64,000 bases of DNA from Anadara kagoshimensis (taxonomy: Eukaryota; Mollusca; Bivalvia; Arcoida; Arcidae). Shown one piece after another: positions 9,206 to 62,035 of this stretch (positions within the stretch are counted from its first letter, which is position 1; each line of letters starts with the position of its first letter). Made by a program: the position numbers and the translations under genes. Below the pieces are notes generated by a model, which was not told where the DNA came from, ran no database searches, and saw nothing but the letters and a program-made list of their open reading frames with translations. The DNA is taken from positions 310,001 to 374,000 of the forward strand of contig JACFYK010000023.1 of assembly GCA_021292105.1 (NCBI GenBank). The letters run 5' to 3'.

Positions 9206-9428
9206 GAAGCGGAAATAATCGTTATTCATTCGATATATAAAGTTTTGTATATTACAAAATTGTTTTTAAGGTAGGGGGGTTTTATTAGTCTCTTAGAATA
9301 TTTGTGACAAAATAAACACTTTTTGAAATCAAAGCTTACTGGTAAAGATTGATGGCGATTGTTATTCAAGGAATGGCTCAAAACGTCACAGACGCGTTGA
9401 TGAACACCATTAACGATACGCTCATAAA

Positions 9429-10785
9429 TCAAAAACAAACATACTTATCCATTTCCGAATCACAATCCAGAAGCAAAGTAAAAACTTTGGAACTGACAAG
9501 TTAGGTTAGACACGTGAACTTCCACCAGGGAAGTGAGGCCGGGTGCTCCGGAAGGGTAAGCACCTCCTGTTTAGCTAGCTACAACCGTCACGTGTGTAAT
9601 CAAAATTGTGTGAAAGGAACATGGAACTATGTATATCCAAGGCAATCCTGGACACAGAGACATCAAACTTATCAACAATACTGTGATGACGGCCATAAAA
9701 CTTTTTGAGGGCCTTGATAAGCCTAGGCTTGCAATATCCCTGAGTCAACAATTTATTTGCAAGCAGCCTACTTCGTTGTACAAAGTCCCCGTAGTGGGAA
9801 CAAGCTCTACAATAGCGTATTAATTGGGAAACAAATACACCATAAGCAGGAGAAGCAGGTATATTGCTGCATAAAAAAGGAAAGTTGACAATAGAAAAAT
9901 TGAAGTCATCACGTTTGTCATAAAGTTTCAAATGTAGCCTTTCTTGTGCGTCATATTTCAGGTATAAGTCTAAATATGAAGCAGAACTTGAGGAATCAGT
10001 CGTGTCTTTTATTTCAAGCTCACTAGGATAGATGACATTTACATAGTCTCCAAATTTAGGATTTTTAAGAGACAGAACGTCATCTATGTATCTGTATGTT
10101 GAGTTGAATGATTTGGCGACAGTTTTCTCTCCAGATTTAACAAGGTTCTGCATTAATTCTGCTTCGTAAGAGTAAAGAAACATCAGCAAGCAATGGTGCA
10201 CAGTTTGTACCCATTGGTATACCGATTGTTTGCTGAAAAACTACATTACCAAACACAACAAATATGTTATCTATCAAAAACTCCAACATTTTGTTGATGG
10301 TATCTTTAGTATATTTTTGTTTGGAATCCGTATGATGCTTGACAAAATAACCATTCTAGAATCCCTGTTCAGCACCAGATATTTGTATCTTGGCTTCCCG
10401 TTTTTGTAGAAGAAAGACAAGTGAATAATTTCTTTAAGACGTTCTTTCAATTTAGAATGAGGGATTGTGGTGTATAGTGTAGAAAAATCAAATGTTTTTA
10501 TACTTTTTACATGAGATAAAATATTAGAAGCAAAATGTTCAAGCAATTCTTTAGAATTTTTGAGAATCCACATTTGGTTGATTCCAGATGTAGAATATAC
10601 TTTTTCTGAATAAGACTGAAGACCATCTTTGACGATTGTCAAAATTTGTGTTAGAGTTACCGATAATGATCTAGTAGTACATTTAGATGAGCCTGCTATA
10701 TATCTTTTCTTGTATGGATTTTTATGGAGTTTAGGAATCCAATACAAATAAGGAAGATCAAGATCTTCCTCTTTAAGATTGATAC
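9429..10785 (-). mobile_element. Penelope-like retroelement (PLE), longest copy, 5'-truncated and frame-disrupted
   Basis: Two consecutive minus-strand frames (10,747-10,274 and 10,201-9,575) encode parts of one reverse transcriptase. PKLHKNP and FDFSTLYTTIP match the Penelope-clade RT core, the latter carrying the motif A aspartate. GTNCAP occurs in partial form near 10,205, and YIDDVL (motif C, catalytic DD) is near 10,090. Downstream come KLYDKRDDFNF and KKFYGRHHS, seen in all copies here. No GIY-YIG endonuclease is visible, so this copy lacks at least one domain of a complete element. A frameshift separates the two frames near 10,205-10,270. The 3' end (9,429) reads aatcaaaaacaaacata on the plus strand, the same terminus as the other copies. 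Subfamily is unresolved; Naiad-like invertebrate PLEs are one possibility. Confidence 0.8.
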
Positions 10786-10847
10786 CGAAAGACTCGAGAA
10801 CTCCCCTATGGTTGGAAAGAACTATAAAGATTTATAACGTCACGTTT

Positions 10848-16235: not shown

Positions 16236-16327
16236 TCAGCGGGACTGGAGCTTGTGACCCTTAGGTTCCCAGACTATACATTCTTATCTGACTCTTCATC
16301 CTTATTCATTAGGCCACGGAGGAGATG
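16236..16327 (-). repeat. Second copy of the tRNA-derived sequence
   Basis: Reverse complement of the tRNA-like unit at 6,804-6,896, sharing the box A region (ggccta...) and box B region with a few substitutions. Beyond its 3' edge the two loci no longer match, so the inversion breakpoint is at or near this edge. Confidence 0.6.
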
Positions 16328-16341
16328 ATTCAACGTTTTAT

Positions 16342-16987
16342 AATCCTAAATTTGGAGACTATGTAAATGTCATCTATCCTAGTGAGCTTGAAATAAAAGA
16401 CACGACTGATTCCTCAAGTTCTGCTTCATATTTAGACTTATACCTGAAATATGACGCACAGGAAAGGCTACATTTGAAACTTTATGACAAACGTGATGAC
16501 TTCAATTTTTCTATTGTCAACTTTCCTTTTTTATGCAGCAATATACCTGCTTCTCCTGCTTATGGTGTATTTGTTTCCCAATTAATACACTATGGTAGAG
16601 CTTGTTCCCACTACGGGGACTTTGTACAACGAAGTAGGCTGCTTGCAAATAAATTGTTGACTCAGGGATATTGCAAGCCTAGGCTTATCAAGGCCCTCAA
16701 AAAGTTTTATGGCCGTCATCACAGTATTGTTGATAAGTTTGATGTCTCTGTGTCCAGGATTGCCTTGGATATATTTGACGTCTCATAGTTCCATGTTCCT
16801 TTCACACAATTTTGATTACACACGTGGCGGGTGTAGCTAGCTAAACAGGAGGTGCTTACCCTTCCGGAGCACCCGGCCTCACTTCCCTGGTGGAAGTTCA
16901 CGTGTCTAACCTAACTTGTCAGTTCCAAAGTTTTTACTTTGCTTCTGGATTGTGATTCGGAAATGGATAAGTATGTTTGTTTTTGAT
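16342..16987 (+). mobile_element. Penelope-like element, 5'-truncated copy within the inverted arm
   Basis: It begins inside the RT gene (frame FGDYVNVIYPSELEIKDTT) and reads through KLYDKRDDFNF, AYGVFVSQLIHY and KKFYGRHH. It then has the conserved untranslated 3' end ccggagcacccggcc ... ggaagttcacgtgtc ... aaatggataagtatgtttg. The left arm of the inverted duplication at about 6,770-6,800 gives the uninterrupted sequence, so this copy inserted after the arms were made. Confidence 0.8.
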
Positions 16988-19118
16988 TATATATAAGTTA
17001 GCTATAAGGATATGTGATCACGCGACCAGCTCTTAATCTTTCATATTTTAGATAATAATTTAAAAATATATGTATATTTGTCATTTTACTCCATTTGTTA
17101 AATATCTTATTTATAATAATAATAATACTAATAATTATTATTAATATTATTATTGTTATTATTATATGTTACAAGTAGAAAGGAGACACTATCTTAAATC
17201 CATTTCAATTTTTTTAATTTATTTATCTATTCATTAATTTATTAAGTTTTTCAATATGAAAATGTAATATTCTGGGATTTTTAATCTAAAATTAATAAGT
17301 CATTAATTGAAGGACGGTATCTGAGAGCTTTATTTGACTTAATTTGTTGAATGTGCGTGTTCTGTGAGTGACTAATTGTAAAATGTAACTTACGTTAAAG
17401 AAAACTAGAAAATAATATTACACAAGTGATGGTAATGAGAGAGAGAAATTACTTTTTAAAATGAGAATATGCATACCTTATCAACATATAAGGTAACTGG
17501 TTGATAACAGAAGCAAATTCCAACCAATTGAACCAGACGGTAGTATATTCTACGTGGAAAATGTACCTGCATGGTGTTAACCTCATTAACAGATTAATTA
17601 CCTATAACCAGTACTCACACCAGTTTTTTTATTAAATTAATACTTCTATAATTTCATGTGATTGAAATTAATAATTATGTAAATAAATAAATAAATAAAT
17701 TCATTCATTCTAAACTTTGACGTTGAACCAGCGACATTTAACGATGATTGACTCTCTTGTTTCAAAATATTTTTAAATTTCTATTATTGTTTCTTTTTAT
17801 TAAAAACGAAATAAAATTCAAATGATTATTTATTTGGCGTCAGATGAGCAATATGTCCTACACAAAAAAGATAAATACGTGGAAAATAGTATAAAAAGTG
17901 CCGCATCAAATTTGAAATGAAAGACAAGAATTAAAAAAACAGAAGAAAAAAACTTGTTTTTAAAAAGAATTTAGCTAGAAAAACCTTAGTCTGAAACACC
18001 AAATCAGAGAGGTCATCTTTTTGGATTTCTTATTTAATTGTTTTTTTCTGCATGTATAATGGATAATTTATGTGATGAGAGAGAGAGAGATTAGCTTAAA
18101 TTTCTTAAATAAATGGTAGTTTATGCTCTTCTGCTTCCGAAAATACCTTTTGTCGAAAATTGTTTGTAGATTAACACAGACATTTCATATGGCTACAATG
18201 AAAATACATTCTGGTCTCAACTTCACCCATTACTTGTTAGAGAAAACTTTGTAGCAAATCGCATCAAAAGATGGTTCAGCTCAACACGGTTTGAAGTTTT
18301 TTATTACAAAATGCCTTCAAAAAACACCTGTGACAACCCAATTTGAAAAAAAGTACGCAATTTGAAAAAAAAAATCTTTTTAACCATAAAACATCTTTGA
18401 TTTCAACCACTTTTTTCGAGCAGTCGGGAGACCGATAATAACCAATAGGAATAAACGTGCACCAGGCAGTTTGATAGACAGTACACTAAAAAAAGCAGCA
18501 GCACACACACACACACACACACACAGACACACAAAAGATTTTATATAAAAAAAAAACGAATGGACTTGGACATTTTATTTTAGTTGTCGGCTTGTCAACT
18601 TGTCGATTTGTTGACCTTTTGAATTGCCATCTTGTTGACCTGTCTACTTGCCTATTTGTCAATCTGGAGAGAGAGAGTGTGTATTTAACTAAGAATGTCT
18701 ACGATTAATATTTCTGCGATACTAGTATAATGATATACAGACAACCTGATATTTCAACTCCAACAAAAAATGCATTTTGTGTGATTTATTTCTTCGGTTT
18801 AAGACAATTGTTATTATCATTTCGATCCCGGGACGGTTCTGACTAAGAGATGAGTAATGACTGTACTTTTTTCAAAGCCGACATTTAGAAATGAAAGACA
18901 CGGGTCTTAAGGAGGAGACCTCAAAAACCAAGTTCCCGTGTGAAGGCAATTCTGCGTCTTTCCCATGAAGCTGGTGACTTAACGATGTAATTAACTTATT
19001 CTTGACTGGGACTTTTTACCTATTTAATCAATCAATCATACAGAGATAGCAGTAAAGTCGTCATATATACAATTTCAATATTTTAATAATTAAAAAAGTT
19101 TACGACACTGTAAACCCA

Positions 19119-25334: not shown

Positions 25335-25514
25335 TTAATGACCCACATATTACGAACACGATTTCCCGCAAGAGGTTGACCTTAATCATTGAACGACATC
25401 TGTCCGAGTTGTTGTTTTAGGTTAGGCCGAAAACCAACAAACATTGTATAATTTTCTTGAATGAACTTGTTTTTCATTTCTTGTAAGTGACGTGACATCT
25501 TGTCAAAACAAGTT

Positions 25515-25830
25515 TGTGGATTTGACCGAATAAAGTTTGTGGAAAATCGCGCCAGATTAAAGTTTGTGGAAAATCGATTAATGTTTTACGAATTTGACCG
25601 AATAAAGTTTGTGGCAAATCGTTCCAGATTAAAGTTTGTAGATTTGACCAAATAAAGTTTGTGGAAAGTCGCGCAAGATTAAAGTTTGTAGATTTGACCG
25701 AATAAGGTTTGTGAAATATCGGGCCAGATTAAAGTTTGTAGATTTGACCGAATAATGTTTGTGAAAAATCGCGCCAGATGGAAGTTTCTGGAAAGATAGA
25801 TTTCGTTTTAGATGGAAGTTTTTAGATATT
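25515..25830. repeat. ~50-bp satellite array 1
   Basis: Tandem repeats combine aaagtttgtagatttgacc, gaataaagtttgtgg and aaaatcgcgccagatt, about six units with small variants. The same array type recurs at 26,775-27,065. Confidence 0.8.
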
Positions 25831-25961
25831 GTTTGTTAACATCATTCGTTTTGGACTGCAATTACCCGGGCAGTAAGTGGAATGCCTAAACGAGACACGC
25901 GACATAAAACCCTACAAGGGCAAATACGTCTCTAAATGAAATAAAATAAAATAAAATAAAT

Positions 25962-26133
25962 AACAAGTAATATAAAGTACCGATATGTATATCAATAACT
26001 GTAACATGGATGTCTTGTAGGGACTGGTCAAGGTGCTTGTGATGGTGATCAACATGTAAATAATAAACCATAATAATAAACACACATTTCAAATACATGT
26101 TTCGGGACCAGCCCGGTATAGCGGTCTGTGGTG
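25962..26133. repeat. 172-bp repeat, nearly identical copy 1
   Basis: From aacaagtaatataaag to ggtctgtggtg this is the same as 29,699-29,870 with one base difference noticed (aaagtacc versus aaagaacc). The surrounding duplication is much more diverged. Minus-strand ORFs containing 'YLKCVFIIMVYYLHVDHHH' are shared by both copies only because of this repeat. Confidence 0.8.
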
Positions 26134-26620
26134 CATGCATTTCTCGACACACAGGGCATGTACATGACATTGACATGGACATAAACGTTTCTTTTAGGTA
26201 ATAAAGACTGTATGCCATATATTACCGTGTGGATTACAAAGCGCGACATGCCCTACACGGACAAGTAGATACGTTTACTTTAGTGCTACGTAGGACTATA
26301 TAGCATGCATTTCTCGACACACAGGGCATGTACATGACATGGACATAAACGTTTATTTAAGCTACTTCAGATTGTATGTCATATATTACCGTGTGGATTA
26401 CAAAGCGCGACATGCCCTACACGGACAAATAAATACGTTTACTTTAGCAACTAAAAACTAGATACAATGTATTACGGTACGGTATGAATTACAAAACGCG
26501 ACATTCCCTACACGGACAAATGAATACGTTTACTTTAGCTATTTGAGACTGTATAGCATATATAACCGCATGATATGGATTACAAAACGCGACATACCCT
26601 ACAAGGACAAATACGACTGA
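26134..26620. repeat. Satellite-like repeats ('gcatgcatttctcgaca', 'atacgtttactttag' units)
   Basis: Three or more units of gacatgccctacacggacaa, aatacgtttacttta, gactgtat.g.catatattaccg alternate over this stretch. Related units occur at 28,960-29,230, 37,400-37,540, 40,110-40,440 and 41,225-42,045. Confidence 0.7.
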
Positions 26621-26774
26621 CCAGACACGCGATATCAAATCCTCCACGCGACAAAAAACCCTTAAGTTTGGTAATTGATCTCTCAGAACAAAAACACTAT
26701 CCCTTTTACACGAGGTCTGAAATGAAAATGACCAATGACCTTGCGCTTCTTTCTTTTATGTCGTCGTTTCTGAT

Positions 26775-27065
26775 TAACGTTTGTAGATTTGACCGAATAA
26801 AGTTAGTGGCAAAATTAACATTAAACTTTGTGTGAAAAATCGATTAATGTTTGTTGAAAATCGTGCCGGAATAAAGTTTGTAGATTTGACCGAATAAAGT
26901 TTGTGGTAAAATTAACATTAAAGTTTGTAGATTTGACCGAATAAAGTTTGTGGAAAATCGCGCCAGATTAAAGTTTGTTGAAATTCGTGCCGGATTAAAG
27001 TTTGTAGATTTGACTGAATAAAGTTTGTGGAAAATCGTTTCAGATCAAAGTTTGTTGGAAAATGA
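26775..27065. repeat. ~50-bp satellite array 2
   Basis: Same unit as 25,515-25,830 (gatttgaccgaataaagttt, gtggaaaatcgcgccag), about five units with partial ones. The ORFs crossing it are artefacts. Confidence 0.8.
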
Positions 27066-34112: not shown

Positions 34113-34181
34113 GGAAAATCCTCGTGACGTTATGATGAATATTAATGAACCAGGTCGGGATATCCCATACACGAAATATTA

Positions 34182-34547
34182 TTGTACAACGAAGTAGGCT
34201 GCTTGCAAATCAATTGTTGACTCAGGGATATTGCAAGCCTAGGCTTATCAAGGCCCTCAAAAAGTTTTATGGCCGTCATCACAGTATTGTTGATAAGTTT
34301 GATGTCTCTGTGTCCAGGATTGCCTTGGATATATTTGACGTCTCATAGTTCCATGTTCCTTTCACACAATTTTGATTACACACGTGACGGGTGTAGCTAG
34401 CTAAACAGGAGGTGCTTACCCTTCCGGAGCACCCGGCCTCACTTCCCTGGTGGAAGTTCACGTGTCTAACCTAACTTGTCAGTTCCAAAGTTTTTACTTT
34501 GCTTCTGGATTGTGATTCGGAAATGGATAAGTATGTTTGTTTTTGAT
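34182..34547 (+). mobile_element. Penelope-like element, strongly 5'-truncated copy
   Basis: Begins at the codons for QRSRLLANQLLTQGYCKPRL and runs through KKFYGRHHS, the end of the reading frame and the conserved 3' end to gtatgtttgtttttgat. Nearly identical to 37,760-38,130 and 16,620-16,987, so these copies are young relative to the duplications. Confidence 0.8.
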
Positions 34548-34689
34548 TGACAATCAATTTTTAAAAAAATAAATATAATTTATCATCAAATGTGATCCAT
34601 GTTTAAAGTTATTTAACTTAAAAATTGTTTGATGAGCATACTTTATGTTTATTCATCGATGTCACTTTGCGTAAATTAAAAAAAATCAA

Positions 34690-35329: not shown

Positions 35330-36125
35330 TTGTATGGAGTTTTCACTGTTGATCTTGTCTTGCGATTTTCTTTCGATTGATGTCAAAGGTCAAGGTCATG
35401 TTCCAGTTTTTTACCTTCGATAAAAAATGCTATTTTTTAAACATTTCTGGTGATAATGACGTAGGATGTTTGGTTAATTGTAGGTATTGACATGATGATC
35501 ATTTTGATATATCGATTAAGGTCCTGGGTTCAAAGGTCAAGGTCACAGATGTACAAGTTTACCAAAATAGTTAATTATCTGAAAAACTATGAATTTTTTG
35601 TATAGGCATGTATATTAGAATATTGTAGGTAATGGTTCAATGGTCATTTTGATATATGAATAAAGGTCATGAGTTCAAAGGTCAAGGTCACAGATGTAAA
35701 CAAATTCTGAAATGATTATTTATCTCAAAAACTATAAACTTTTTGTATAGGCATGTATATTAGAATATTTAGGTATTATCCTAATGATCATTTTGATATA
35801 TGAACGAAGGTCATGGGTTCAAAGGTCAAGTTTACAGATGCGAATGAATACCTAAATGGTTAATTATCTTGAAAACTATTAACTTTTTGTATAGGCATGT
35901 ATATTAGAATATTGTTGGTACTGGCACAATGGTCATTTTGATATATGAATGAAGGGCATGGGTTCAAATGTCAAGATCACAGATACAAACAATTACTGAA
36001 ATGATTATTTATCTCAAAAACTATAAACTTTTTGTATAAAGATGTATATTAGAATATTGGCCTAATTATCATTTTGATATTTGAATGAAGCTCATGGGTT
36101 CAAAGGTCAAGGTCACAGGTGAGCG
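35330..36125. repeat. Tandem array, ~140-bp units, tail of the composite element
   Basis: The phrase cattttgatatatgaa recurs at about 35,503, 35,648, 35,787, 35,932 and 36,070, a spacing of 136-145 bp. Each is followed by gggttcaaaggtcaaggtcac and by aaactataaactttttgtat. Confidence 0.85.
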
Positions 36126-37626: not shown

Positions 37627-38130
37627 GTGACACAAACGTGATGACTTCAATTTTTTTATTGTCAACTTCCCTTTTTATGCAGCAATATACCTACTTATCC
37701 TGCTTATGGTGTATTTGTTTCCCAATTATTACGCTATGGTAGAGCTTGTTCCCACTACGGGGACTTTGTACAACGAAGTAGGCTGCTTGCAAATCAATTG
37801 TTGACTCAGGGATATTGCAAGCCTAGGCTTATCAAGGCCCTCAAAAAGTTTTATGGCCGTCATCACAGTATTGTTGATAAGTTTGATGTCTCTGTGTCCA
37901 GGATTGCCTTGGATATATTTGACGTCTCATAGTTCCATGTTCCTTTCACACAATTTTGATTACACACGTGACGGGTGTAGCTAGCTAAACAGGAGGTGCT
38001 TATCCTTCCGGAGCACCCGGCCTTACTTCCCTGGTGAAAGTTCACGTGTCTAACCTAACTTGTCAGTTCCAAAGTTTTTACTTTGCTTCTGGATTGTGAT
38101 TCGGAAATGGATAAGTATGTTTGTTTTTGG
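37627..38130 (+). mobile_element. Penelope-like element, 5'-truncated, between inverted flanks
   Basis: Starts in the RT C-terminal region (acaaacgtgatgacttcaa), runs through the common 3' end and stops at gtatgtttgtttttgg. Flanks are complementary: gggattcttacgctatcc at 37,598 and ggatagcgtaagaatccc at 38,166. Confidence 0.8.
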
Positions 38131-38548
38131 TTAAGAGAGGGTGGAAGAATGGGTGGAAGGTGGAAGGATAGCGTAAGAATCCCTGCTCTCCAATTATTCC
38201 TATTACATCGATGTTACAAAGAAGTACGCATTCAACGTGTTCCGACCACCTCTTACGGCCAGCTTCAGTATGAAGTGATGGTGCTGATCTATGGGGTGGG
38301 CACGCGACCACCGTAATGGTATATCTATATATCTTTTGAATGTGGACGAATCTGCGGTCTTATGCGCACAAATCTATGAAACAAGGGCGAGATGCGGTAG
38401 AATGAATTTCGATAACGCACAGGGTTGAACGATTGGCGGTTACGACGATGATGTGACAATTTTTGACTTGACCATCCATTTTTCTCCCTCACCCGGGCCC
38501 GAAAAAGGCCCCTTTTGTGCCATATATTACAGTATGGTTACAAACGCC

Positions 38549-40109: not shown

Positions 40110-40440
40110 TAATTGGGACTGTATAGCATGTATTTCCCGACAAAAACGGACATAGACATAGACGTTTCCTTTAGCTACTAAAGACTGTATACGATATTGA
40201 CTACCGTATTGTTATAAACGCGACATTCCCTAAACAAAAAGATGCGTTTACTTTAGGCTAAAGACTATACGATATTCACTACCGTATGGTTACAAACGCG
40301 ACAGTCCCTAAACAAATATATACGTTTACTTTAGGCTAAAGACTATACGATATTGACTATCGTATGGTTACAAACGCGGCATTCCCTGAAGAAATAAATA
40401 CGTTTACTTTAGGTACAAAAGATTGTATACCATATATAGA
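40110..40440. repeat. ~80-bp satellite array, left of the Penelope copy
   Basis: Units of gactgtatacgatattg, accgtatggttacaaacgcg, acattccctaaac and atacgtttactttagg, about four copies. Confidence 0.8.
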
Positions 40441-40457
40441 TAACATAATAGATACAT

Positions 40458-41229
40458 AATAGATAACATATTTGTTGTGTTTGGTAATATAGTTTTTCAG
40501 CAAACAATCGGTATACCAATGGGTACAAACTGTGCATCATTGCTTGCTCATTTGTTTCTTTATTCTTACGAAGCAAAATTTATGCAGAACCTTGTTAAAT
40601 CTGGAGAGAAAACTGTCGCCAAATCATTCAACTCAACATACAGATACATAGATGACGTTCTGTTTCTTAACAATCCTAAGTTCGGAGACTATGTAAATGT
40701 CATATATCCTAGTGAGCTTGAAATAAAAGACACGACTGATTCCTCAAGTTCTGCTTCATATTTAGAGTTATACCTGAATTATGACGAACAAGAAAGGCTA
40801 CATTTGAAACTTTATGACAAACGCGATGACTTCAATTTTTCTATTGTCAACTTTCCTTTTTTATGCAGCAATATACCTGCTTCTCCTGCTTATGGTGTAT
40901 TTGTTTCCCAATTAATACGCTATGGTAGAGCTTATCAAGGCCCTCAAAAAGTTTTATGGCCGTCATCACATTATTGTTGATAAGTTTGATGTCTCTGTAT
41001 CCAGGATTGCCTTGGATATATTTGACGTCTCATAGTTCCATGTTCCTTTTACACAATTTTGATTACACACGTGATGGGTGTAGCTAGCTAAACAGGAGGT
41101 GCTTACCCTTCCGGAGCACCCGGCCTCACTTCCCTGGTGGAAGTTGTCTAACCTAACTTGTCAGTTTCAAAGTTTTTACTTTGCTTCTGGATTTTGATTC
41201 GGAAATGGATAAGTATGTTTGTTTTTGAT
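40458..41229 (+). mobile_element. Penelope-like element with RT catalytic core, internally deleted
   Basis: The frame 40,477-40,980 includes QQTIGIPMGTNCASLLAHL (motif B region), YIDDVLFLNN (motif C) and FGDYVNVIYPSELEIKDTT. The segment between AYGVFVSQLIRYGRAY and KVLWPSS has lost about 100 bp relative to the other copies and changes frame there. It ends in the shared 3' end to atgtttgtttttgat. It sits inside the 80-bp satellite array, splitting it. Confidence 0.8.
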
Positions 41230-42045
41230 ATATTACAGTATGGTTACAAATGCGACATTCCCTAGACAAATACGTTTACTTTTGGTACAAAAGATTGTAT
41301 AGCATTGGCTACAGTATGGTTACAAACGCGCTGTCCCTAAACAAATAAATACGTTTATTTTAGGGACTAAAATCTGTATACGATATTGGCTACCGTATGG
41401 TTACAAAAGCGATATTCCCTAAACAAGTAAATACGTTTACTTTAGGCTAAAGACTGTATACAATATTGACTACCGTATGGTTACAAACGCGACAGTCCCT
41501 AAAGAAATAAATACGTTTACTTTAGGTACCAAAAACTGTATACGATATTGGCTACCGTATGGTTACAAAAGCGATATTCCCTAAACAAGTAAATACGTTT
41601 ACTTAAATGCTACCGAGGACTATATAGCATGCATTACTCGACAAAACGGAGTTGAACATAAACGTTTACTTTAGGTACAAAAGATTGTATACCATATATT
41701 ACCGTATGGTTACAAACGCGACAGACCCTAAGCAAATAATTACGTTTACTTTAATGCTACCGAGGACTATATAGCATGCATAACTCGACAAAACGAAGTT
41801 GAACATAAACGTTTACTTTAGGTACAAAAGATTGCATATATTACCGTATGGTTACAAACGCGACAGTCCCTAAACAAATAGGTTCTTTTACTTTTGACTA
41901 AGGACTGTATACGATATTGGCTACCGTATGGTTACAAACGCGGCATTCCATGAAGAAATAAATACTAGGTACTAAAAACTAGATACGATATTGGCTACCG
42001 TATGGTTACAAACGCTACAGTGCCCAAACAAATAAATACGTTTAC
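41230..42045. repeat. ~80-bp satellite array, right of the Penelope copy
   Basis: taccgtatggttacaaa recurs near 41,308, 41,393, 41,477, 41,562, 41,700, 41,846, 41,922 and 41,998. The common spacing is 76-85 bp, with two longer intervals that include the gcatgcattactcgacaaaa segment. Confidence 0.85.
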
Positions 42046-44087: not shown

Positions 44088-46103
44088 TCGATCAAAAACA
44101 TACTAATCCATATCCGAATCACAATCCAAAAGCAAACAAAAGTTTTGGAACTGACAAATAAGGTTTTAACGTGAATACCCACCAAAGAAGTTACGACGGG
44201 TGCTCTGGAAAAGTAAGCACCTCCTGTTTAGCTAGCTACAACTGCCACGTTTGTAATCAAAATTGTGTGAAAGGAACATGGAACTATGAGACGTCAAAAT
44301 TATCCAGGGCAATCCTGAACACTGAGACATCAAACTTATCAACAATACTGTGATGACGGCCATAAAACTTTTTGAGGGCCTTGATAAGCCTAGGCTTGCA
44401 ATATCCCCGAGTCAACAATTATTTGCATGCAGCCTACTTCGTTGTACAAAGTCCCGTAGTGGGAACAAGCTCTACCATAGCGTATTAATTGGGAAACAAA
44501 TACACTATAAGCAGGAGAAGCGGGTATATTGCTGCATAGAAACTAGAAAAATTAAGGTCATCACGTTTGTCATAAAGTTTCAAATATATCCTTTCGTTTG
44601 CGTCATACATAATTCAGGTATAAATCTTAATATGAAGCAGAACTTGAAGAAGCAGTCGTGTCTTTTATTTCAAGCTCACTAGGATAAAAATCACAGTCCC
44701 CAAATTTAGGATTGTTAAGAATAAGAACGTCATCTATATATCTGTATGGTGAGTTGGATGATTTGTCGACAGTCTTCTCTCTAGATTTAACAAGGGTCTG
44801 CATAAATTCTGCTTCATAAGAATAAAGAAACAAATCAGAAAGCAATGGTGCACAGTTTGTACCCATAAGTATACCGATTGTTTGCTAAAAACTATATTAT
44901 CTATCCTAGTGAGTTTGAAATAAAAGACACGACTGATTCCTCAAGTTTTGCTTCATATCTAACCCTATATTCAGTAACTGAAACTTTGTACAACGAAGTA
45001 GGTTGCTTGCAAGTAAGTTGTTGACTCAGGTATAATGCAAACCTAGGCTTATCAAGGCCCTCAAAAAGTTTATGGCCGTCATCACAGTATTGTTGACAAG
45101 TTTGATGTCTCCTTCCAGGATTGCTCTGAATATATTTGACGTCTCATATTTCCATGTTCCTTTCACACAATTTTGATTACACACTTGGCAGATGTAGCTA
45201 GCAAAACAGGAGGTGCTTGCCCTTCCAGAGCACCCAGCCTTACTTCCCTGGTAGAAGTTAACGTGTGTAAACTAACTTATCAGTTCCAAAGTTTTTACTT
45301 TGCTTCTGAATTGTGATTCGGATATAGAATTTCATGTTTGTTTTTGATTAGACTTATACCTGAATTATGACGCACGCGAAAGGATACACTTGAAACTTTA
45401 TGACAAACGTAATGACCTCAATTTTTCTATTGCCAAATTTCCTTTTCTTCGCAGCAATAAACCTGCTTCTCCTGCTTATGGTATATCAAAAACAAACATA
45501 CTAATCGATTTAAGAATCACAATCATATTTGTTTCCCAATTAATACGCTATAGAAGAGCCTGTTCCCACTACAGGGACTTTGTAAAACAAAGTAGGCTGC
45601 TTGCAAATAAATTGTTGACTCTAGGCTAATCAAGGCCTTCAAAAAGTTTTATGGCCGGCATCCAAGTATTGCTAATAGGTTTGAAGTCTCTGTGACCAAG
45701 ATTGTCCTGGATATATCAAAACAAACATACTAATCCATTTCCGAATCACAATCCAGAAGCAAACAAAAGTTATGGAACTGGCAAATAAGGTTTTAACGTG
45801 AATATCCACCAAATAAGTGAGGACGGGTGCTCTGGAAGGGCAAGCACCTCCTGTTTAGCTAGCTACAACTGCCACGTGTGTAATCAAAATTGTGTAAAAG
45901 GAACATGGAACTATGAGACGTCAAATATATCCAAGGCAATCCTGGACACAGAGACATCAAACTTATCAACAATACTGTGATGACGGCCATACAACTTTTT
46001 GAGGGCCTTCATAAGCCTAGGCTTGCACCTATATTTGACGTCCCATTGTTTCATATTCTGAATTTGAGATTCAAACATGGATTAGTATGTTTGTTTTTGT
46101 TAT
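44088..46103. mobile_element. Nested cluster of Penelope-like fragments in both orientations
   Basis: 44,088-44,892 is a minus-strand copy with GTNCAPLLSDLF and YIDDVLILNN. 44,893-45,353 is a plus-strand copy with an internal deletion and a complete 3' end. 45,354-45,713 is plus-strand RT C-terminal sequence carrying a roughly 40-base inverted 3'-end scrap at 45,486-45,527. 45,716-46,025 is a minus-strand 3' end, and 46,027-46,103 a plus-strand 3' end. Head-to-head and partial tandem arrangements are typical of Penelope insertions. ORFs beginning MNIHQISEDGCSG or MNTHQRSYDGCSG are the antisense of the untranslated 3' end. Confidence 0.8.
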
Positions 46104-56889: not shown

Positions 56890-56990
56890 TCTACTACTGA
56901 TGAGGAATTGTATTTCGAAAAGGCCGTCTAGAGTGCTGTGAAAAATTAAAATAGGTATATATATGTAATTTCAAGCGTCCGAGTGACATT
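56890..56990 (+). ncRNA. Degenerate hammerhead ribozyme-like copy inside the hAT element
   Basis: ctgatgaggaattgtatttc, gaaaa, ggccgtct and a downstream ataggtatatatatgtaatt follow the better copies at 57.2 and 57.6 kb. Stem I is disrupted (ctacta against tagagtg) and stem II has one mismatch, so activity is doubtful. Confidence 0.55.
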
Positions 56991-57214
56991 CAACAGTCTA
57001 ACAAGCATACAGTAAATGTATTGCAAAATACCGGTTTTCATTTAGTGTATCGCGATACGAACCGGTCTAGTGTGCTCATCACGGTTTACCGGTATATCAT
57101 TACACCCCTAGTATACTCCCTCATGCAAAGTATTTCCTTAGCTTAATTTGGTAAAATATATTTTGGTCCTTATCAACATCTTCAAAATTATTTTGGTTTC
57201 ATAATTTTGGTCCA

Positions 57215-57260
57215 AGCACTACTGATGAGGAATTGTATTCCGAAACGGCCGTCTAGTGCT
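57215..57260 (+). ncRNA. Hammerhead ribozyme, type I, best copy
   Basis: Stem I agcacta (57,215-57,221) pairs perfectly with tagtgct (57,254-57,260). The core CTGATGA is at 57,222-57,228. Stem II is ggaat/attcc with a tgt loop. Core GAAA is at 57,242-57,245, and a very short stem III acggccgt is followed by the cleavage triplet GTC (57,251-57,253). All invariant nucleotides are present. Stem III is only 2-3 bp and self-complementary, as in retrozyme and Penelope hammerheads that work best as dimers. Cleavage would fall after C57,253. Confidence 0.88.
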
Positions 57261-57553
57261 GTAAATATAAAACTGGTATAATATGTAATTTAAACCTCTG
57301 AGCCGATATCTCTGCTGGTGGCTGGTGCCCCGAGGATATCACAAACTCAGTAGGCAATAATTTCGTATTATTGTCAGAAATATACTATAATTGTCTAAAT
57401 TTCCTGCAAGTTAAAATTTGAAATTTCTCACAAACTAAGGTATACTCCCTCATGCTAAGTATTTCCTTAGCCTAATTTGGTAAAATATATTTTGGTCTTT
57501 GGGGTAGCTTTTCAACATCTTCAAAATTATTTTGGTTTCATAATTTTGGTCCA

Positions 57554-57626
57554 AGCACTACTGATGAGAAATTGTATTCCGAAACGGCCGTCTAGTGCTG
57601 GAAATATAAAACGGCCGTCTAGTGCT
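57554..57626 (+). ncRNA. Hammerhead ribozyme, second tandem copy, with duplicated cleavage arm
   Basis: agcacta ... CTGATGA ... GAAAC ... GGCCGTC ... tagtgct is intact at 57,554-57,599. One G-to-A change in stem II gives an A-C mismatch. Immediately after it, acggccgtctagtgctg is repeated at 57,610-57,626, so two GTC/stem I 3' strands follow a single catalytic core. Confidence 0.82.
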
Positions 57627-57976
57627 GAAAATATAAAACTGGTATAATATGTAATTACAAAGGAGCAACCAGATAAAAGTAAGATAATTCATTTTTATAA
57701 CATATATCCTTAAGTCAATATTTTGTCTCAACTAATCGCACAATCAAGATAAACATCAAGATATCGGGGTTTATTCTAACAAATTTTAGCCAAAGATTCA
57801 AGGTACTTGTTGTTTATTGGTCGTAACATTAGCCGAACACAACCCATTATTTCCTTTTATGTGCTTATTTTACGATCATTCTATGCTACCACATCGTATA
57901 TTGTCCTCTCGAATATTCTGTAAAATCTTATTCACTCATAGTTTTGTATGATTTGTCCTTTATCATTACCATGTAG

Positions 57977-58460: not shown

Positions 58461-58709
58461 CAGATGTTGAAACAATTACCAAAGAACCTAAATATATTTT
58501 ACCAAATTTAGCTAAGGAAATACTGTGCATGAGGGAGTATACCTTAGTTTTTGAGGAATTTCAAATTTCGTCTAGCAGGAAAATATTTCTAACAATAATA
58601 CACAATTATTGCCTAATGGGTTAGTGATATCCTCGGGGCACCAGCCACCAGCAAAGATATCGTCTCAAGGGTTTAAATTAAATATTATACCAGTTTTAAT
58701 ACACCACTG
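58461..58709 (-). repeat. Inverted retrozyme unit without hammerhead core
   Basis: The reverse complement runs from agtggtgtattaaaactgg through tataatatttaatttaaacc, ggtggctggtgccccgagga and aaggtatactccctcatg to ggttctttggtaattgtttc. It therefore starts where the tandem units have agtgctgtaaatataaaact, right after the predicted cleavage site. Confidence 0.65.
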
Positions 58710-60955: not shown

Positions 60956-61792
60956 ATTTTTTTTTTATTTTAATGATTTTAATCACAAATAGACAACGTT
61001 CAGGGGCAATTATGAATTTGAATATGAAAGCAATAAAGAACGTTTCAGTAAACAACACAGGCGATGCTCATCTTTTTCATAACGACACATAAAACCTGCA
61101 GAAGTGGCCCTGGTAATCTGGTGTTGAGCAGAGTACTATGGCAGCAATTGAACATTTTTATTGTCAATATGACAATGAAATAACCTGGTACCACAAGTGA
61201 ATGCTTGAATGCAGATGACACGCCGGTGTATTTGTCGTATTTAAGTGGCAATGATAAACCATCCAAAATGAAGTGAAGATCAAAAGGTAAAAAATACGTT
61301 TTTGTCACAAAAATGTCTTCAAAATCTTCAATGCAAATATGAACTCAAGCCGGCATAAACACCGAAAACTAATAATTTTGTATAAATAATCATCTCCTTA
61401 AAGTTACATTCTTGTATTACAGGATCAAGAGAAGAGAAAATTGAAAAGTAAAATTAATAATTTTTAAAGCGTTATAAAACTTCCTCAATGTAACAAATCA
61501 AATCGATAACTTTACATTATTTCTATTTAATTGGTTAACATCCTATCAACTATACAAGTATAAATCATTCATATATTACAGAATCAGATGGCTGTAAACA
61601 TAAAGAAGAAAGAAAGAAGAGAAAAGCAAATGACGAGTGAAAAGGACATCTAAAACTGAACAAGGTAAAATGAAATCATAAAAAAGAAACAAAAAAATAG
61701 TTTTTAGCTAAAACAAATAGCCAGCAAAAACAAAATAAAATTAATTAGCTTAAACGATTTCTTTAAGATATATTATAGAACTATAACCATCA

Positions 61793-62035
61793 AAACAAAC
61801 ATACTAATCCATGTCCGAATCACAATCCAGAAGCAAAGTAAACATTTTGGAACTGACAAGTTACGTTAGACAGGTGAACTTCCACAAGTGAAGGCAGGGG
61901 ACTCAGGAAGGGTAAGCACCTCCTGTTTATTTAGCTACACCCGCCACGTGTATAATCAAAATTGTGTGAAAGGAACATAAACCTATGTCGAACCTATCAA
62001 CAATACTGCGATGACGGCCAACAATACTGCGATGA
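61793..62035 (-). mobile_element. Penelope-like 3' end, diverged
   Basis: atcaaaacaaacatactaat ... gaagcaaagtaaacattttgg ... gtgaacttccacaagtgaag ... ttgtgtgaaaggaacat, followed by a broken RT C-terminal remnant (aacaatactgcgatgacggc). Confidence 0.75.

Follow-up and report, generated by a model that had tools for sequence, protein, structure and literature searches.

The window analysed here is a 64,000-nucleotide stretch of the Anadara kagoshimensis genome (C35:310001-374000 in an assembly of 1.115 Gb and 36 contigs) that carries two tandem type I hammerhead ribozyme (HHR) motifs within a repeated, non-coding element (Table 1). Reading of the sequence places a perfect 7-bp stem I in the first motif, formed by AGCACTA (57215-57221) and TAGTGCT (57254-57260), and enclosed by it are the core elements CTGATGA (57222-57228) and GAAA (57242-57245). 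Stem II, GGAAT-TGT-ATTCC (57229-57241), has 5 bp and a 3-nt loop. CGGCCG (57246-57251) leads into the GTC triplet (57251-57253), and cleavage is expected after 57253. The helix III region, ACGGCCGT, amounts to two pairs (A-U and C-G) capped by the palindromic tetraloop GGCC. The second motif is the first displaced by 339 bp, save for one change in stem II (GAAAT/ATTCC) that leaves a single A.C mismatch.

The two motifs are real and do not reflect chance. The pattern CTGATGA-N5..30-GAAA-N4..20-GTCTA, whose fixed GTCTA misses variants, was matched three times in the window where 0.04 matches were expected, and none of 100 shuffled sequences reached three. The third match, at 56897, is a degraded HHR with a broken stem I and an altered stem III; when a paired stem I was required, the two tandem copies remained and neither the other strand nor the reversed sequence yielded any. 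The claim of two type I HHRs in tandem at about 339-bp spacing, made in an earlier note on this DNA, is thus borne out, as is its claim that the locus has no open reading frame: no stop-to-stop frame of at least 120 amino acids overlaps it, and the longest frame in the repeated unit has 49 amino acids. A Pfam search of five window frames returned nothing at 1e-3, and the HHR core had no exact match in IMG/VR. The Rfam search that the note had suggested as a check went the other way. No match was found anywhere in the window at the gathering threshold, and at E<=10 a 3.5-kb segment gave five sub-threshold matches, of which one, to RAGATH-1, is a hammerhead; it covers 57524-57624 with 23.5 bits against a gathering threshold of 56.3 (E 0.87) and with different pairing. 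Rfam therefore fails to confirm the HHRs, though the motif is real.

Table 1. Positions of retrozyme features and of pieces of the reverse transcriptase element RTX within the window
Feature	Position	Strand	Evidence
Type I hammerhead ribozyme, copy 1	57215..57260	+	Sequence, pattern with shuffles, stem I scan with controls
Type I hammerhead ribozyme, copy 2; predicted cleavage after 57592	57554..57599	+	As for copy 1
Retrozyme insertion B, 5'-truncated array of ~1.6 units	57111..57656	+	BLAST of unit, array table
339-nt unit between both cleavage sites, predicted linear or circular RNA	57254..57592	+	Deduced from cleavage sites
First 37-nt tail copy, internal, continuing into next unit	57254..57290	+	Unit numbered from cleavage site
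Terminal 37-nt tail; element stops at 57656, unrelated DNA beyond	57620..57656	+	Unit alignments, flank comparison
27-bp local tandem duplication (2.1 copies) of HHR end and tail start	57582..57639	+	Tandem Repeats Finder, repeat search
Retrozyme insertion A, separate 5'-truncated copy (E267-E339) with degraded HHR at 56897	56893..56970	+	Pattern, BLAST, array table
Retrozyme fragment C, E1-E230 and a few preceding bases, without HHR	58462..58675	-	Repeat search, BLAST
RTX pieces	9427-10831, 44096-44899, 61782-61987	-	Sequence comparison
RTX pieces	16258-16991, 34181-34548, 37631-38133, 40444-41233, 44983-45350	+	Sequence comparison

Positions within the 339-bp unit are given as E1-E339, numbered from just past the fixed 3' end of the element. 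Insertion B reads E150-E339, then E1-E322, and then the 27-bp duplication, through which it again reaches E339. The earlier note had assigned the locus to 57215..57599; its HHR positions stand but its extent does not, since the insertion spans 57111-57656, with fragments A and C close by. The locus looks like a single retrotransposition product and not like a piece of satellite, and its 339-bp spacing is genuine. The unit has a GC content of 0.342, that of the window being 0.341.

A loose form of the HHR pattern was matched 4713 times on the plus strand and 4645 times on the minus strand of the genome, compared with 140 and 118 times in the reversed control. HHR pairs spaced 324-354 bp apart number 523 and 439 on the two strands, compared with 0 and 0 in the control; genome-wide tandem copies, whose absence the note would have counted against a retrozyme, are therefore present. 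One array, at C3:9334922-9339303, has 12 tandem links among the matches listed and extends over about 4.4 kb, or about 13 units. HHR matches outnumber tandem links about tenfold, as counted with two patterns of unequal strictness.

These properties support the assignment of the window element to the metazoan non-LTR retrozymes, described in 2020 by Cervera and De la Pena (PMC7229834), as a new family of a known kind. The element has an intact type I core, belongs to many-copy tandem repeats in the range of 150-450 bp, has a GC content below 50% and is non-coding; with its 339-bp tandem unit and thousands of dispersed matches, the animal retrozyme identity advanced in the note is upheld. Retrozymes of the mussel Mytilus galloprovincialis likewise combine type I HHRs with repeats of a few hundred bp, low GC content and no open reading frame, and as described they comprise 350-390 bp repeats and about 5000 HHRs (PMC7229834). 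By comparison with that published description, the present family differs in its 339-bp unit and its palindromic helix III region. The HHR repeats of the axolotl (330 and 350 bp) resemble it in unit length, type I HHR and a weak, dimer-favouring helix III but, according to the published text, form two families with 126,247 motifs (PMC7229834). Plant LTR retrozymes share an HHR-driven circular RNA as the proposed transposition intermediate, but are described as having type III HHRs, LTRs, a primer binding site and HHRs 600-1000 bp apart (PMC7761336); the HHRs found here have their open ends in stem I and are not of type III.

The edges of retrozyme copies bear on the open question of how such elements are copied. 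We aligned the unit to loci L001-L050, picked by the HHR pattern and all within the first 4.2 Mb of C1, and to the window, joining adjacent pieces into arrays; after the exclusion of 10 overlapping or duplicate loci, 64 HHR-bearing arrays remained. Forty-four of these end at E337-E339, that is, 35-37 nt beyond the cleavage site. In 60 of the 64, one of them cut by the edge of its locus, the 3' end lies between +8 and +37, and in the other four it lies elsewhere in the unit. Six arrays end at +18 to +20, which is possibly a second 3' end site; five of the six are just 69-81% identical to the reference. When the unit was renumbered from the cleavage site the stop still fell near position 35-40, and is thus not an artefact of the choice of reference. 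The 5' starts range from E1 to E292, and a uniform spread was narrowly not rejected (KS p = 0.057, 63 of the 64 values). A single HHR is present in 55 arrays, two in eight and five in one, so that two cuts could not free a complete unit from most sampled copies. We describe here the fixed 3' end, the scattered 5' ends and the preponderance of copies with a single HHR: we found no report of a fixed retrozyme 3' end in the open-access retrozyme literature among the matches listed, and the main text of PMC7229834 contains no word beginning 'truncat'.

A search for the final 18 nt of the tail, CTGGTATAATATGTAATT, plus a flank whose 13th base is A or T gave 1829 and 1791 exact matches on the two strands (3620 in all; control, 0). 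The pattern demands A or T where a normal tandem continuation has C, and ordinary continuations are therefore left out of this count. The first 100 of the 3620 matches, all on C1, have flanks that are almost all unrelated AT-rich DNA; 84 of them are distinct within two mismatches, and all but two of the 84 (82) lie outside retrozyme sequence. The first flanking base is A or T in 69 of the 82, no further consensus is evident, and TATATA or ATATAT occurs in two. A clear target-site duplication, of 32 bp, was seen at one of 46 copies (L016:1466-1773). General target-site duplication was considered and rejected, as anchored matches of at least 7 nt were found in five of the 46 copies, L016 included, near the background of 2.4 expected.

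Units of the same array are closer to one another than to any other aligned copy in three of nine comparable arrays (L002, L043 and L046). The five units of L002 differ by 2-5 per approximately 338 bases, with no evident rise with distance, and each of the 59 other copies compared is at least 2.8% divergent from them; the units of L043 differ at 1 of 69 positions and those of L046 at 2 of 178. This near-identity is expected from repeated copying of one circle. The six remaining arrays (L001, L019, L022, two in L041, and that of the window) are not closer within, and may be older or composite. In the window array 6 of 163 positions differ (3.7%), compared with 2.8% to the nearest other copy.

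Folding predictions bear on the action of the ribozymes. Two HHR copies are predicted to cofold as a double hammerhead in which each has its stems I and II and both share an 8-bp palindromic stem III, with a predicted energy of -36.7 kcal/mol compared with -13.4 for one copy. The predicted monomer pairs its core differently, and the catalytic core is not formed. The cofold makes dimer action plausible in multimeric retrozyme transcripts. The earlier note had held that the palindromic stem III needs dimerisation; a dimer fold is indeed predicted, but "needs" overstates the case. Most invertebrate HHRs are described as cleaving efficiently alone (about 0.1 per min in the mussel and 0.8 in a coral), while an axolotl HHR, described as similar to those of invertebrates and resembling the present one in a helix III with just two pairs closed by a tetraloop, underwent 22% cleavage in one hour as a monomer and cleaved better as a dimer (PMC7229834). 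A hairpin is predicted just beyond +37 in the unit. In the circular fold predicted for the window unit the HHR stems are absent (0 of 7 and 0 of 5 pairs), and in that of an L002 unit they are present. Two further lines were set aside: the circular fold is no more stable than those of shuffled sequences (z -1.3 and 0.1), and covariation within the genome is uninformative as proof of the HHR fold, with three compensatory double changes over 15 stem pairs in up to 76 copies.

The retrozyme unit contains no open reading frame for a reverse transcriptase (RT) or GIY-YIG endonuclease of the Penelope-like element (PLE) type. PLEs have been proposed as a candidate partner of retrozymes on the grounds of shared HHRs, tandem copies and co-occurrence (PMC7229834); in the account given by PMC7761336, no motif points to the partner. 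Within the same genome a GIY-YIG search gave 50 matches, with 150 of 248 candidates scored, and 24 loci were examined. Four PLE loci read at length have long frames, one of them (L054) split by a stop, in which PK[IV]HK and [FY]LDD lie upstream of the endonuclease, an order that we take to be canonical for PLEs. In 13 of the 24 GIY-YIG loci, a minimal type I HHR whose stem I is paired lies downstream of the open reading frame; none was found in antisense or in reversed sequence. An altered form of this HHR occurs in six loci (L052, L060, L065, L069, L070 and L071), and a different HHR-like motif, with CTGATGA, a 7-bp stem II, GAAA, a palindromic CATG and GTC, occurs in L057-L059; neither an HHR nor an HHR-like motif was seen in L056 and L074. 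The motif of L057-L059 (L057:1239; L058, as its reverse complement; L059:1247) lies about 1 kb beyond the GIY-YIG domain and marks a further PLE family. A divergent HHR in L034 and L039 was rejected as that of a PLE: the two loci duplicate each other, stem I is unpaired and no long RT frame is adjacent.

The PLEs that carry minimal type I HHRs, both here and in the Anolis element PAc, resemble the retrozyme in that the HHR lies near the genomic 3' end, with a short tail after the cleavage site. By eye, 7 of the 13 HHR-bearing PLEs end approximately 38 to 44 nt past that site: homology among the five copies of family P1 is lost about 38-39 nt beyond it, close to the +35 to +37 at which 44 of the 64 retrozyme arrays end, and L051 and L067 of family P2 end near +44. 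Other ends fall at about +54 (L068), +80 (L053, L066 and L073) and +90 (the P3 copies L062 and L064). The PLEs differ from the retrozyme in encoding an RT and a GIY-YIG endonuclease, in a shorter helix III with a palindromic tetranucleotide, and in their tails, which have no recognisable sequence in common with that of the retrozyme. The PLE copies examined also mostly adjoin (TA)n, an adjacency that the retrozyme flanks generally lack; in 26 of 34 P1 tails genome-wide, TATATA is reached no more than 14 nt beyond the final fixed base of the search pattern.

In the Anolis PLE, reverse transcription is reported to start in vitro inside the RNA, downstream of the HHR, at two adjacent sites 111-118 nt into the open reading frame, with the HHR cut at 26 and hence about 85-92 nt away; the enzyme requires RNA beyond its start site and prefers AT-rich targets, and a tail of 30-40 bp is described as optional (PMC11167929). 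HHR mutants are described as inserting normally in vitro (PMC11167929), so cleavage is dispensable for that PLE.

We think it fairly probable that reverse transcription of the retrozyme begins internally, in the manner of a PLE, on a circular or multimeric RNA. Multimeric transcripts would be cut by their type I hammerheads into 339-nt unit RNAs, which a host ligase would close into circles. A reverse transcriptase, most likely supplied by a PLE, would start at one fixed internal position, 37 nt 3' of the HHR cut, at an AT-rich chromosomal site, and would copy round the circle for distances that vary, mostly short of a full unit but at times spanning several. Insertions made in this way would share their 3' end, differ in their 5' end and occasionally form tandem arrays. 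A self-cleaved monomer would end at the cleavage site, and so the fixed internal 3' end is not a monomer end; lying inside the unit, it implies that copying begins inside a circle or a multimer, unless the template is an uncleaved transcript that ends at +37. A PLE is the likely source of the enzyme because PLE families here have the same layout of body, HHR, short tail and end, and the need of the PLE enzyme for RNA past its start site would make circles or multimers natural retrozyme templates. The HHR motifs, their copy number and tandem pairs, the 3' and 5' ends of the sampled copies and the HHRs and tails of PLEs are observed; cleavage, circularisation, the circular template and the supply of enzyme by a PLE are inferred. 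The sharp common 3' end, some 37 nt downstream of ribozyme cleavage and near the tail ends of PLEs, provides a concrete and testable starting point for copying, and thousands of copies in one assembly, some of them in near-identical tandem arrays, make the mechanism itself testable.

Several observations weigh against PLE-type initiation. The tails are not homologous, PLE 3' ends lie at several positions between +38 and about +90, and target-site duplications at retrozyme copies are rare and near background. In the Anolis PLE, initiation lies about 85-92 nt past the HHR cut and not at 37, and insertion proceeds normally with a mutated HHR (PMC11167929). The few compensatory changes in the HHR stems, the unexceptional stability of the circular folds, the absence of the HHR stems from that of the window unit and the selection of the array sample by an HHR pattern count on the same side. 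The retrozyme may also use an endonuclease that differs from that of the PLEs, as the PLE copies examined mostly lie next to (TA)n and retrozymes in AT-rich but otherwise varied DNA. Copying from one circle, in turn, is opposed by the six of nine arrays, the window array included, that are not closer within. As an extension of PLE-type initiation we tentatively suggest, as a possibility short of an even chance, that animal retrozymes parasitise PLEs by imitating their HHR and short tail, the ribozyme-made circle being the step that yields a usable template. If so, an RT start at the tail would need downstream sequence that only a circle or multimer supplies, circle formation would be more than a by-product, and dead ends with a single HHR would make up most of the genomic copies.

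Movement of the retrozyme by some other RT takes up most of the probability that we do not give to PLE-type initiation. Specifically, a LINE-type non-LTR RT, or that of RTX, could have moved the retrozyme and set its fixed 3' end, which we consider rather unlikely. RTX is a very abundant, 5'-truncated, PLE-like RT element with an RYIDD motif and a fixed 3' end ..TTTGTTTTTGATT, and so it shares with the retrozyme a single 3' end, 5' truncations and varied sites. At the 5' junctions of 73 retrozyme arrays (gap of at most 8 nt) RTX was found seven times in the same orientation and never in the opposite one, as template jumping would produce. In two of these seven cases, however, RTX flanks the retrozyme on both sides, and at 3' junctions (gap of at most 5 nt) it was found twice in the same orientation and once in the opposite one. 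A genome-wide search for RTX junctions, in one distance bin and with no opposite-orientation control, gave two matches, neither of them direct. RTX also has no recognisable HHR or retrozyme-like tail, and its own tail is not similar to that of the retrozyme. Mobilisation by RTX through template jumping was accordingly rejected, as a junction bias in a small sample that was unsupported in the one genome-wide bin.

Origin as satellite DNA, a 339-bp repeat spread by unequal crossing-over and rolling-circle DNA amplification with the HHR as a passenger, would account for the long homogeneous arrays, such as that of about 13 units on C3. It is improbable given that 55 of the 64 sampled arrays are dispersed copies with one HHR, that 44 share one 3' end while their 5' ends vary, and that tandem links, by patterns of unequal strictness, are about a tenth as frequent as HHR matches; long arrays alone, without fixed ends, are not what is found. 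The repeat might instead be the pseudo-LTR (HHR and tail) of a PLE and not an independent element, and its order of HHR and tail does match that of PLE copies that coexist with retrozymes in this genome. The unit is, however, tandem with itself, its helix III is longer than that of PLE HHRs and it has no significant match to the four PLE loci read at length, except for a retrozyme copy beside L053, all of which makes such an origin highly improbable. Chance resemblance to a hammerhead, suggested by the sub-threshold Rfam score, can scarcely be credited against three window matches where 0.04 were expected and 9358 genome-wide against 258 in reversed sequence.

Several other features were observed in passing. 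Of 42 genome loci searched, including the one from which the query was taken, 38 contain pieces of RTX, and its relatives make up 7922 of 8000 scored candidates in a protein collection; the 120 RT relatives listed include one from the pearl oyster Pinctada imbricata. One RTX fragment lies about 3.4 kb from the divergent HHR of L039. In the window, 3-4 bp beyond its end at E230, fragment C adjoins an internal RTX fragment on the same strand (58458-58328), and the two together are possibly a chimeric retrocopy. Pairs of C1 retrozyme tails with the same flanks recur approximately 0.4-0.9 Mb apart, in order or inverted (for example 11.81-12.54 and 12.70-13.34 Mb, 21.24/22.03 Mb, and 22.43/22.85 Mb), as if large segments had been duplicated or both haplotypes had been assembled in series. 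Finally, the window holds other tandem arrays at 35477-36118, 40162-42039 and 25510-27063, with periods of 145 bp, 74-164 bp and 23-164 bp, respectively, which are unlinked to the retrozyme.
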